NCBI GenBank assembly: GCA_913060875.1
Contig: CAJXSL010000011.1
Coordinates: 110,570 to 174,569 of the forward strand
DNA: 64,000 bases
Reading direction: 5' to 3'
Origin: an uncultured Desulfobacteraceae bacterium
GTDB lineage: Bacteria; Desulfobacterota; Desulfobacteria; Desulfobacterales; UBA5852
Shown here: piece after piece, positions 23,249-27,630 of the stretch
Numbering within the stretch: position 1 is the first letter of the stretch
How the letters are laid out: each line of letters opens with the position of its first letter
Made by a program: the position numbers and the translations under genes
The notes under the pieces: generated by a model
What the model saw: the letters and a program-made list of their open reading frames with translations, nothing else
Database searches by the model: none
Told to the model about the DNA's origin: nothing

Positions 23249-23716
23249 TTAATCTGTTTTGCGCAATCGTACTGCCAGTACTCTGCCGCCGTCTGCCGGC
23301 GCCTGGCCGCTCCAGCCTTCGCCGCCATAGCTGAAGCTGAAAACCCATCGCGAGGAAGTTGTGCGGGTCTTTCCGGCCCAGATCCAGTAACCCGAATTGC
23401 GCAGTAGAGGCGTAATATTGCTCACCCCGTCACCGATGCGGGAAAGCGCATCCAGCTCGCTTCGGCTCGGCATGCGCCACCCGCCCCCGAAGACGCCGAG
23501 TCCGGCCACCCAGTCCCGGGCCTCATCCCAGCTCACGCCCTGATCGCCCCCCGCATACCACTCGAGGCCCGATGAGGTGTCGTAGACGATACCCGTCGCA
23601 TACTTCACCAAGTTCCGATCCCGGGCAACGATTTCATCACTCAGGCAAGGTGTTGCCCTCAGCATCGCGGTCAGAGCAACCACGATCAGCAGCATTGAAA
23701 ATCGAACAGGCTTCAT
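23249..23716 (-). CDS. Secreted DUF1566 (Lcl-type) domain protein
   Basis: Signal peptide; VYDTSSGLEWYAGGDQGVSWDEARDWVAGLGVFGGGWRMPSRSELDAL...YWIWAGKTRTTSSRWVFSFSYG pattern. Confidence 0.85.
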   Translation of the reverse strand: MKPVRFSMLLIVVALTAMLRATPCLSDEIVARDRNLVKYATGIVYDTSSGLEWYAGGDQGVSWDEARDWVAGLGVFGGGWRMPSRSELDALSRIGDGVSNITPLLRNSGYWIWAGKTRTTSSRWVFSFSYGGEGWSGQAPADGGRVLAVRLRKTD

Positions 23717-23879
23717 CGCAAGAGGACTCCTGATTTGGGGATGCGATTAGAATTGAATCTAACGGCTTACAATAGATATTGACCATCGCTGCCCGTGATT
23801 CAAGGACGGACCGACGGCAAAATGATCATTAAATACCAATGGTCGGAGGATCACGCGGGCGGCAACAATAACCTTGCCA

Positions 23880-23903
23880 GGATGTAGTTAATCAACTACA
23901 TCC
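23880..23903. promoter_or_regulatory. Perfect dyad GGATGTAGTT-AATC-AACTACATCC, candidate TetR operator/promoter
   Basis: 10-bp perfect arms; sits in the spacer of a TTGCCA-17-TACATC promoter-like arrangement; the same core recurs twice upstream of the alkylsulfatase. Confidence 0.62.
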
Positions 23904-24000
23904 TTCACTGATATCATCATTTTAGGGTCTTCTCCCGAATAGTTGGTGCAAATGAGCAATTGGGCCACAGGGTATTACCTCTCGGGCATCTCGGGATCAT

Positions 24001-24240
24001 AAGGGTTCCAGGCGTCAAGGGGTCAAGGATCCAAGTGAAATACTAAAAAATTACAAAGAATGGCAAGTGTGGCAAAAAGCATATGCGCTTTGTTTGCATC
24101 TATATAATGTATCGAAACGCTTTCCAAAATTTGCAGTGGAAATGGGGCCAATCGAGCGAATGCTGAAAGCTCTGATTAAATCTCCAGAGAACAAACCCTT
24201 GGCCACTTGAATCCTAGAACCCTTGGACCCTTTCTCCCAA
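24001..24240 (+). pseudogene. Degenerate IVS/four-helix-bundle (TIGR02436-type) element with large internal deletion
   Basis: Frame ending at TGA 24208-24210 reads ILKNYKEWQVWQKAYALCLHLYNVSKRFPKFAVEMGPIERMLKALIKSPENKPLAT*: family N-terminus fused directly to family C-terminus. Flanked by imperfect inverted AAGGGTTCC/CAAGG-type ends. Confidence 0.75.
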
Positions 24241-24285
24241 CAAATTGGGAGAAGAACCTCATTTTATATACTGCGAGGATCTCCG

Positions 24286-24876
24286 ATGCACCCCAAAACC
24301 CGCCCCACCGGCAAAAAAGATGTCATGAACGCCATTCTCATAGCAGCCACGGATCTGTTTGCCGAACGCGGTGTGGCCGGCGTGGCCGTCCGGGACATTG
24401 CCGCCCGGGCCGATGTAAATCACGGCCTTGTCCATCGGCACTTCGGCTCCAAGGAAAATCTGCGCCTGCAAGTGCAGAATCACTTGATGCAAAAAATCAA
24501 TGCGGACATCGGTGAACCGGACGACTACGCAGAGGCTTTCCTGCGGGGCGTGGCGGCCCTGCGCCGGAACGAGGCCTTCTGGAAAGTGTTGGCCCGGACT
24601 TTTCTGGACGGGCAGTTCGAAGGCGATGTGCAAAGCGCCTTTCCCTATCTCCGGAAGATGATCGCCCTTATTGCCGCCGCCCAGGCCGACGGCAGGTTCG
24701 ACAAATCCCTGGACCCGCGCCTCCTGGTGGCCGGGGGCACCGCCATGGTCCTGGGGCTGTTTGTTTTTGCCAACTACCTCCTGCCCGGCACCGGCCTGGA
24801 CGATCGACCCGCCGAGGAGACCCAGGATGCCATCCTGCAGGCCTTCATGGATATCCTGATTCAAGAAGCCAAATGA
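24286..24876 (+). CDS. TetR/AcrR-family transcriptional regulator
   Basis: ORF 24223..24876, likely start MHPKTRPTGKKDVMNAILIAATDLFAERGVAGVAVRDIAARADVNHGLVHRHFGSKENL (TetR HTH). Confidence 0.9.
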   Translation: MHPKTRPTGKKDVMNAILIAATDLFAERGVAGVAVRDIAARADVNHGLVHRHFGSKENLRLQVQNHLMQKINADIGEPDDYAEAFLRGVAALRRNEAFWKVLARTFLDGQFEGDVQSAFPYLRKMIALIAAAQADGRFDKSLDPRLLVAGGTAMVLGLFVFANYLLPGTGLDDRPAEETQDAILQAFMDILIQEAK

Positions 24877-25285
24877 AGCTCCTCCCGCGCAGCGGGAGGT
24901 TTCAGGTAGCCCACTTGAGGGGGCTGTAACATGGTTTGAAGCCTTTGTTTTTGGTTTTCCCTTTGTCCCGCGCTGAGCATCGGCGGAGCGGACGGATTAA
25001 GGCGCGCGGACTGTCTGAGTCCCGCGGAAAGCGGGGCGAGTTTCCGCGTGCTCCGGCCGCACCGACGACGCGCAGGATTAAGCGGGACACGGGCGGTTGA
25101 AGCCTGTCACGCCGTTTTCATGCAAGGCGTGATTGCTTCCGTTTTCTTTCACGTGAAAGAAAATGAAGAGCCCATCTATAAAAAAAACTCCCGAATCGGT
25201 GGGACCTCTCCGGGTCATCCACAGGGGTGGAGGACTCAGAACAATACCAACTCAACCCAATGCCCCCTGGCATCCCGAACTTGAC
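24877..25285. repeat. Hairpin-rich intergenic repeat, left copy (flanks alkylsulfatase gene)
   Basis: Shares ...GGGGGCT..A.CATGGTTT..., GCGGACGGATTAAGGCGCGCGGACT, GAGTTTCCGCGTGCTCCGG and ACCTCTCCGGGTC...GGTGGAGG blocks with 27395-27630; hairpin CCTCCCGCGCAGCGGGAGG at its start. Confidence 0.65.
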
Positions 25286-25289
25286 AAAG

Positions 25290-25336
25290 CGTAGTCATTC
25301 GGTTACATCACCAAGCCATGTAGTCGATTGGCTACA
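25290..25336. promoter_or_regulatory. Two tandem operator-like sites upstream of alkylsulfatase (25290-25307 and 25319-25336)
   Basis: CGTAGTCATTCGGTTACA and TGTAGTCGATTGGCTACA, both resembling TGTAGTTAATCAACTACA at 23883-23900; TTGACA (25281) -17- TACATC promoter-like elements overlap the first site. Confidence 0.6.
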
Positions 25337-25401
25337 AATACGATCCGGACTGTCCGAAAAAATTTAACTCGCCGACCACTCAAGCCCTGCGGAGGTCTGT
25401 C

Positions 25402-27378
25402 GTGAAACATCTCCATGCTTTACTGGTAATCGCCATGCTCACCGTCGTCGCGGCCTGCACACCGGAGCCTGGCGAGAATGCAGATGCCTCCGGTTTCAGT
25501 GCCCCATCGAAAATCACGCGTAAGGCCAATGAACGCGTGCGGGAGGAACTTCCCATAGACGACCCGGCCGATTTTAAGGAGGCCCGGCAGGGCCTGATTG
25601 CGGCGGCCCCACAGCTTCAGGTCAAGGATGCCGAGGGGGCTTTCCTATGGGACATGGAGCGCTTCGGCTTCATCGATGGAACGGCGCCGGCCAGCGTCAA
25701 CCCGAGCCTGTGGCGCCAGGCCAAGCTCAACAATATCCACGGCCTGTTCGAAGTCACAGAGGGCATCTACCAGCTGCGGGGATTCGATCTGGCCAACATG
25801 ACCCTCATCGCGGGTGAATCCGGATGGATTATCGTGGACCCGCTCACCACCCGGGAAACGGCCGCCGCGGCCCTCGCCTTTGCCGAGCAGCACCTGGAGC
25901 GCAAACCGATTGCGGCCATCATTTTCACCCACAGCCACATCGACCACTTCGGGGGGGCGCTGGGCGTTATTTCCGCCGCGGAGGCGATCGAACGCGCCAT
26001 ACCGGTCATTGCGCCCAAAGGCTTCATGGCCGAGGCCACCAGCGAGAATGTCATCGCCGGCATCGTCATGGGCCGCCGGGCCGCCTACCAGTTCGGCCGC
26101 CCCCTGCCGGCGTCGGAACGCGCCTACGTGGATACAGGGCTGGGCAAAGCGGTCCCTTTCGGCCAGTATGGCATCCTGGCACCAACCCGGACAGTCGACC
26201 ACACGCCCCAGGAAATGATGATCGACGGTGTGCGTTTCATTTTCCAGTATACACCCGAATCGGAAGCCCCGGCCGAGCTGACGTTTTATCTGCCCGATCA
26301 TAAAGCCTTCTGCGGCGCCGAGATCGTCTCGCGCAACATGCACAACCTCTATACCTTGCGTGGGGCCAAAGTGCGCGACGCCCTCAAATGGAGCCATTAT
26401 ATCGGTGAGGCCATGGACCTTTTCGGGGAAGCCGAAATATATTTCGCCTGCCACCACTGGCCCATCTGGGGTCGCCATAAAATTTTAAACTTCCTCGAAA
26501 AACAGCGGGATCTCTACAAATACATCCATGACCAGACCATGCGCCTGGCCAATGCCGGCTATACGCCCCGGGAAATTGCGGATCAGATCGTCCTGCCGGA
26601 AGCATTGGACCGCTTCTTCCCCAACCGCGGTTATTACGGAACCCTCAGCCACAACACCAAAGCGGTTTATCAAGGTTATCTGGGATGGTACGACGGCAAC
26701 CCCGCCAACCTCAATCCCCTGCCCCCGGCGGCCGCGGCCAAACGTTATGTGGACTACATGGACGGTGCGGATGCGATACTGGCCAAAGCCCGCCAATCCT
26801 TCGGTGAAGGCGATTACCGTTGGGTTGCGGAAGTCCTCAACCACCTGGTCTTTGCCGAGCCGGACAACCGGGAGGCCAAGGCGCTCCTGGCACGCACCTA
26901 CGATCAATTGGGCTACCAGGCCGAATCCGGCGTGTGGCGCAGTGAATATCTGACCGCGGCCTATGAACTCCGGCACGGGGTAATGGACCAGGGAGTGGAT
27001 CTGTCCAAAGCCTATGAATTGCTCAAACGCACGCCCCTGCCGCGCTTTTTCGACAGCATGGCCGTAAGGCTGGACGGCCCCGCGGCCGCCGGCAAAAAGC
27101 TGGCCCTCGATATTGTCTTTACGGATATCGGGGAAAGTTATCGGCTGGAATTGAAAAATGCGGTGCTGCACCACAAAGCGTCCATGCCGTCAGAGGATGC
27201 CGACGTCACCCTGGAAGTGACCCACGATCTGTTCGTGCGCATGCTCACCGGCCTGGCCGGCCTTAAAGAAACCATTTTCTCGGACGACCTGAAAATTTCC
27301 GGCAGCCGCCTGGACCTGTTGAATTTTCTCCGGCTACTGGATCGCCCCAAGGCCAATTTCAATATCGTCACGCCCTGA
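25402..27378 (+). CDS. Linear alkylsulfatase, SdsA/BDS1-type metallo-beta-lactamase fold (lipoprotein signal)
   Basis: IIFTHSHIDHFGGALGV metal motif, GYYGTLSHNTKAVYQGYLGWYDGNPANLNPLPP, C-terminal SCP2-like domain; signal MLTVVAACTPEPG. Confidence 0.93.
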   Translation: MKHLHALLVIAMLTVVAACTPEPGENADASGFSAPSKITRKANERVREELPIDDPADFKEARQGLIAAAPQLQVKDAEGAFLWDMERFGFIDGTAPASVNPSLWRQAKLNNIHGLFEVTEGIYQLRGFDLANMTLIAGESGWIIVDPLTTRETAAAALAFAEQHLERKPIAAIIFTHSHIDHFGGALGVISAAEAIERAIPVIAPKGFMAEATSENVIAGIVMGRRAAYQFGRPLPASERAYVDTGLGKAVPFGQYGILAPTRTVDHTPQEMMIDGVRFIFQYTPESEAPAELTFYLPDHKAFCGAEIVSRNMHNLYTLRGAKVRDALKWSHYIGEAMDLFGEAEIYFACHHWPIWGRHKILNFLEKQRDLYKYIHDQTMRLANAGYTPREIADQIVLPEALDRFFPNRGYYGTLSHNTKAVYQGYLGWYDGNPANLNPLPPAAAAKRYVDYMDGADAILAKARQSFGEGDYRWVAEVLNHLVFAEPDNREAKALLARTYDQLGYQAESGVWRSEYLTAAYELRHGVMDQGVDLSKAYELLKRTPLPRFFDSMAVRLDGPAAAGKKLALDIVFTDIGESYRLELKNAVLHHKASMPSEDADVTLEVTHDLFVRMLTGLAGLKETIFSDDLKISGSRLDLLNFLRLLDRPKANFNIVTP

Positions 27379-27394: not shown

Positions 27395-27630
27395 GCCGGC
27401 ATCAGGCAGCCCCCTTGAAGGGGGCTTAAAATGGTTTACAGCGGGGCGAACGGATTAAAGCGCGCGGACTCTGTTTACCCGCCGTAGCCAAGGCGAAGGC
27501 GGGTGAGTTTCCGCGTGCTCCGGCATCCCCCCGGGTCAGTCGAACCTCTCCGGGTCCGCCACCAGAGGTGGAGGGTTTAGATCAATAGTAACGATCCTGG
27601 CCCTGAGGGCCAGGGTTTCTCTAATAGACT
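27395..27630. repeat. Hairpin-rich intergenic repeat, right copy
   Basis: GCCCCCTTGAAGGGGGC hairpin, GCGAACGGATTAAAGCGCGCGGACT, GAGTTTCCGCGTGCTCCGG, ACCTCTCCGGGTCCGCCACCAGAGGTGGAGG, CCTGGCCCTGAGGGCCAGG hairpin; direct relationship to 24877-25285. Confidence 0.65.

Follow-up and report, generated by a model that had tools for sequence, protein, structure and literature searches.

What do three similar dyads mean when one stands before a tetR gene and two before the alkyl-sulfatase gene that follows it? Within the window (the whole stretch of DNA that was analysed, 64 kb), the sequence-only reading had proposed that they are operators of the TetR protein, serving both tetR and the sulfatase gene. 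Judged from sequence and comparative genomics, which strongly support this proposal, the three palindromes are almost certainly where a repressor docks and so regulates both its own gene and the alkyl-sulfatase gene. The features of the locus are given in Table 1.

Table 1. Features of the tetR/alkyl-sulfatase locus, in positions of the window.
Feature	Positions	Strand	Remarks
Inferred original tetR promoter	23874-23902	+	TTGCCA (23874-23879)-17-TACATC (23897-23902); consensus match; overlaps S1
S1, predicted tetR operator	23883-23900	no strand	TGTAGTTAATCAACTACA; 2 mismatches to cross-species operator
8-bp target-site duplication, left copy	23917-23924	+	TCATTTTA
MITE-like element, 334 bp	23925-24258	no strand	ends GGGTCTTCTCCC...GGGAGAAGAACC; between S1 and tetR
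8-bp target-site duplication, right copy	24259-24266	+	TCATTTTA
tetR, TetR-family regulator, 196 aa	24286-24876	+	HTH signature VNHGLVHRHFGSKENL; PF00440 1e-14, residues 17-62
Inferred alkyl-sulfatase promoter	25281-25309	+	TTGACA (25281-25286)-17-TACATC (25304-25309); direct reading; overlaps S2
S2, predicted spacer operator of sulfatase promoter	25290-25307	no strand	CGTAGTCATTCGGTTACA; 3 mismatches to cross-species operator
S3, predicted operator near start site	25319-25336	no strand	TGTAGTCGATTGGCTACA; 1 mismatch
SdsA1-type alkyl sulfatase, GTG start	25402-27378	+	PF14863 2.6e-60, PF14864 2.8e-35, PF00753 7.6e-18

The regulator has an N-terminal TetR helix-turn-helix domain (PF00440). Its AlphaFold2 model (pLDDT 89.7) is all-helical with a separate C-terminal core, and the PDB matches listed are mostly named TetR-family regulators. 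A structure search with the model returned generic TetR neighbours and no clue to a ligand. The product of the second gene is a predicted type III alkyl sulfatase of the SdsA1 family, with a metallo-beta-lactamase fold and a lipoprotein-like signal peptide. It combines a metallo-beta-lactamase domain carrying a THxHxDH-type motif with Alkyl_sulf_dimr and Alkyl_sulf_C domains, and its motif THSHIDH aligns with SHAHADH of SdsA1 and THSHVDH of PSdsA. It matches Pseudomonas aeruginosa SdsA1 (2cfu), a type III enzyme of the same family, over the whole length (E = 4.5e-187). It is also the sole homologue of SdsA type in the 5.88-Mb genome (a single genomic match), and S3 stands before it.

The dyads S1, S2 and S3 were read directly from the window sequence and are where they had first been placed. 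S1 forms the centre of a 24-bp palindrome at 23880-23903 whose 10-bp arms match perfectly (GGATGTAGTT-AATC-AACTACATCC), as direct reading also confirms. The window was scanned with TGTAGTCNNNNGACTACA (TGTAGTC-N4-GACTACA, 18 bp), the consensus of other species' loci, and S1, S2 and S3 are its only matches with up to three mismatches in 64 kb. None of 4000 dinucleotide shuffles of the surrounding 2.5 kb equalled the observed set, the expectation per 2.5 kb being 0.0005 sites at ≤2 mismatches and 0.03 at ≤3. The 5.88-Mb genome has 67 sites at ≤3 mismatches, which amounts to roughly one in 88 kb. The closest match of all is S3, the sole site with ≤1 mismatch; two mismatches are found at seven sites, S1 among them. 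By these shuffles and genome-wide counts, the likeness of the three dyads is far beyond chance. S2, with three mismatches, is weak as an operator. An Rfam search of 23700-25450 gave no match, and no RNA element was seen there. Because the consensus was first noticed while seeking the window's own sites, the independent tests in other genomes weigh more.

The dyads overlap promoter-like sequences. S1 and S2 do lie in 17-nt spacers of TTGnCA...TACATC arrangements, as had been noted and as direct reading confirms, and the final four bases of each are the first four of the TACATC -10 box. These -10 boxes are weak, and both promoters fail a stricter promoter scan. The promoter at S1 has the register of that at S2, and nearly that of locus L231 (TTGACT-16-TACAAT), where the operator lies in the spacer in nearly the same register as S2. 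At locus L232 (TTGACA-17-TATAAT), the operator starts 5 bp after the -10. Because the operators at L232 and L231 lie next to the -10 or in the spacer, a bound dimer would block RNA polymerase. At the sulfatase promoter of the window both positions are filled, the spacer by S2 and the downstream one by S3, and L062 seems alike. The spacing of S2 and S3 is 29 bp, and their ends lie 94 and 65 bp, respectively, from the GTG of the sulfatase. Paired operators are common in the family; they lie 22-47 bp apart, in most cases 25-27 or 34-35 bp.

S1 is now separated from tetR by a MITE-like element, which the sequence-only reading had overlooked. The element is multi-copy (14 genomic copies, 93-100% over the whole query) and has terminal inverted repeats, a target-site duplication and no intact transposase. 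Among ten aligned copies, the 8-bp duplications are exact in five, the window's included, and agree at 7/8 bases in two more. The element carries a truncated 23S_rRNA_IVP-like ORF, with a weak match to PF05635 that is below the cut-off. Its right end forms with the flank a promoter-like pair (24245-24272) that is weak and no better than chance. A dispersed intergenic repeat is also found on both sides of the sulfatase gene (24900-25240 and 27410-27600), with about 40 further copies or parts in the genome at 73-93%; the first of these stretches has no Rfam match.

The insertion bears on the function of S1. Today this dyad lies 385 bp from the tetR ATG and about 167 bp upstream of the start codon of a divergent Lcl_C-domain gene (23249-23716, minus strand) with no gene between, as would be expected if S1 mainly controlled the Lcl_C gene instead of tetR. 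This is improbable, however, because with the element removed and the flanks joined S1 stands 43 bp from the tetR ATG, together with plus-strand -35/-10 hexamers, the usual autoregulatory place. Hence, until the element was inserted, S1 very probably served as the operator of tetR. Of the proposed autoregulation, the part that stands is its fit to the pre-insertion locus; at present the regulation of tetR through S1 may be altered, and perhaps weakened, by the intervening element.

Are the dyads tied to this regulator in other genomes? Relatives of the window TetR were scanned in one genome per species, and homologous loci were found in Desulfobacterota, Spirochaetota, Alphaproteobacteria, Myxococcota and Mycobacteriaceae. 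Among the 40 tetR-homologue loci that match best, 25 have the operator at ≤2 mismatches (0.05 expected), and among the next 40, 7 have it (0.15 expected). Motif conservation near orthologous sdsA/tetR pairs, the check suggested along with the original proposal, was thus passed at the closest tetR loci. In a maximum-likelihood tree, all 45 operator-bearing rows fall in one clade (69 rows, support 99/90), which includes the window TetR and the mycobacterial regulators beside Rv3406-type genes; with the branch order inside this clade only partly resolved, the tree speaks for clade membership rather than for strict orthology. The other 40 rows, which fall outside the clade, all lack the operator. 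Beside TetRs of the clade it is conserved in at least five phyla (Desulfobacterota, Spirochaetota, Pseudomonadota, Myxococcota and Actinomycetota), and inside the clade the window TetR groups, with support (100/97), with proteins of Desulfobacterota and Spirochaetota. The window TetR has the features of the TetR/AcrR family, including, by S1-S3 and their conservation, putative palindromic operators at its own and a neighbouring promoter.

Beside tetR, the nearest relatives of the window TetR (L058, L144, L056, L057 and L146) show neither the operator nor an obvious variant of it, and hence autoregulation is not universal in the clade. In several of them, operator sites occur elsewhere, before alkyl sulfatases. 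A further genome (L148/L150, on G156 C132) has two tandem TetR copies of the operator clade and no recognisable operator. The lack of a site beside tetR in the closest relatives is what one would expect if the sites belonged to a different, unlinked regulator sharing this type of palindrome with the window TetR. Such a regulator is very unlikely, because the operator tracks the TetR clade in five phyla and is absent beside TetRs outside it, and because the motif alone leads back to the TetR in mycobacteria.

This last result comes from searches that started from the motif. Among 79 Mycobacterium genomes the exact motif is present in 37, and the reversed control in one. At 29 newly fetched mycobacterial motif loci, a TetR of this clade is found in 27, a close Rv3406/AtsK-type dioxygenase in 22 and a distant one in two more. 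A search for the exact motif in the window's class (390 genomes) gave one match, with none of the studied genes beside it. Since this class mostly uses variants (e.g., TGTAGTC-N4-GTATACA), genomes bearing the TetR were searched instead at ≤2 mismatches. Nine relatives of the window with the TetR were used, several of them without an adjoining operator, and all their 47 sites were examined (the first six were chosen by sequence, and the others were then added, which makes the count complete). Alkyl-sulfatase genes lie directly downstream of eight of the 47 sites (the eighth being that of L138), and five of these eight are on contigs other than that of tetR. The expectation, estimated from site density, is well under 0.1 even at ten alkyl-sulfatase genes per genome. 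The sole one-mismatch site among the 47 precedes an SdsA that is 68% identical to the window's. Among all genomes tested, that of L074 (G399) has the most operator matches, eight on several contigs, six of them exact, and possibly a larger regulon.

The genes behind the operator differ between lineages. Type III alkyl sulfatases follow it at L059, L060, L138, L139, L066, L067, L070 and L080. The two alphaproteobacterial loci among these, L066 and L067, have the order tetR-operator-SdsA as in the window, with a sulfatase 52% identical, and a GMC alcohol-dehydrogenase-type gene overlaps the SdsA end (6632-8245 in L066, 4890-6503 in L067); its product is likely the alcohol-oxidising partner of the sulfatase. 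Mycobacterial loci have the TetR and a TauD-family dioxygenase, whose solved relatives are the alkyl sulfatases Rv3406 and AtsK. At L061-L063, a clade TetR and the operator precede a gene of the phosphodiesterase/alkaline-phosphatase superfamily with a Tat-like signal. Its product may represent a third type of enzyme, acting on sulfate or phosphate esters, and a PDB sequence search with the L062 protein found no solved relative. In Rhodobacteraceae-type loci, a cupin (L095) or alcohol dehydrogenases (L096/L098) are found instead. Since enzymes that are unrelated but share a reaction class are found behind one operator, the inducer may well come from the metabolism of alkyl sulfates. Because the clade also controls phosphodiesterase-type, cupin and alcohol-dehydrogenase genes in some lineages, the inducer may also be a compound other than an alkyl sulfate.

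As far as sequence can tell, the dyads are in all probability operators of the adjacent TetR-family repressor, through which the sulfatase promoter would be blocked at S2/S3 and tetR originally at S1, until an inducer lifts the repression. We infer in this scheme DNA binding, repression, the steric mechanism, the induction by a ligand that had first been proposed, and the identity of the inducer. A TetR dimer would sit on each 18-bp site (TGTAGTC-N4-GACTACA). At S2 it would lie inside the -35/-10 spacer and overlap the -10 box, at S3 it would cover the region of the start site, slightly further downstream, and with both sites bound RNA polymerase would be excluded from the alkyl-sulfatase promoter. 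The inducer, in the most likely case an alkyl sulfate or the alcohol or fatty compound formed from it, would bind the TetR core and thereby cause derepression, and the exported SdsA-type alkyl sulfatase would be made. S1 would be the former autoregulatory operator of the tetR promoter, at its original place before the ATG, the element having been inserted since.

Some TetR-family proteins are known to activate transcription, and this one might act as an activator at S2/S3. There is little to recommend such a role, as the operators overlap the -10 or the start region, which is the position of a repressor, and repression is the published role of the homologue in mycobacteria (PMC6180650, PMC6151865). 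That the dyads are due to chance, or are intergenic repeats without a regulatory role, has next to no probability, because, although the local intergenic regions are rich in dispersed repeats, S1-S3 lie outside both repeat families (the MITE-like element and the dispersed repeat), and shuffles, genome-wide counts and cross-phylum conservation exclude chance.

A TetR repressor with a palindromic operator is nothing unusual, and the mycobacterial pair is already known. The Pseudomonas sdsA genes are known to be under the control of a LysR-type activator, SdsB, and are not known to be under that of a TetR. In Mycobacterium tuberculosis and M. bovis BCG, Rv3405c represses Rv3406, and loss of Rv3405c raises Rv3406 (PMC6180650; PMC6151865), which is an alkyl sulfatase (PMC3675115). 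As in the window, a TetR-family repressor thus stands beside an alkyl-sulfatase gene, and mycobacterial homologues in the clade of the window TetR carry the same 18-bp operator, usually paired, in the intergenic region beside an Rv3406-type gene; this comparison rests on the mycobacterial homologues. There are also differences. Rv3406 is a type II Fe/alpha-ketoglutarate dioxygenase, whereas the window enzyme is of type III with a metallo-beta-lactamase fold; the mycobacterial tetR and dioxygenase genes examined here are divergent, whereas those of the window are co-directional with separate operators; and in the window an inserted element splits S1 from tetR. In 2015, MEME was used to compute a mycobacterial motif for Rv3405c (Table 2, E = 3.2e-28; PMC4482099). 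This predicted operator of the mycobacterial homologue, from the same intergenic region and for mycobacteria only, is likely identical to TGTAGTC-N4-GACTACA. Nothing relevant on the motif string or on control of SdsA by a TetR turned up in the literature searched, nor did any report linking Rv3405c-Rv3406 to the SdsA type. Measured against that literature, the new points are that type III enzymes and several phyla are now included, and that the operator links two unrelated classes of alkyl sulfatase.

In conclusion, a guess made by eye becomes a well-supported regulon, and the published Rv3405c-Rv3406 pair is linked to SdsA-type detergent-degrading enzymes of sulfate-reducer relatives, alphaproteobacteria and myxobacteria. 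For a sulfate-reducing lineage, export of such an enzyme could bring in sulfate together with an alcohol that can be oxidised. More broadly, the evidence leans towards one TetR subfamily and one conserved operator acting as a cross-phylum sensor of alkyl-sulfate esters, in which the DNA site would be kept and the enzyme exchanged between unrelated folds (type III metallo-beta-lactamase hydrolase, type II dioxygenase and perhaps a hydrolase of the alkaline-phosphatase superfamily). If so, the operator, which points to a common inducer, could by itself serve as a tool to find new, still uncharacterised sulfate-ester enzymes.
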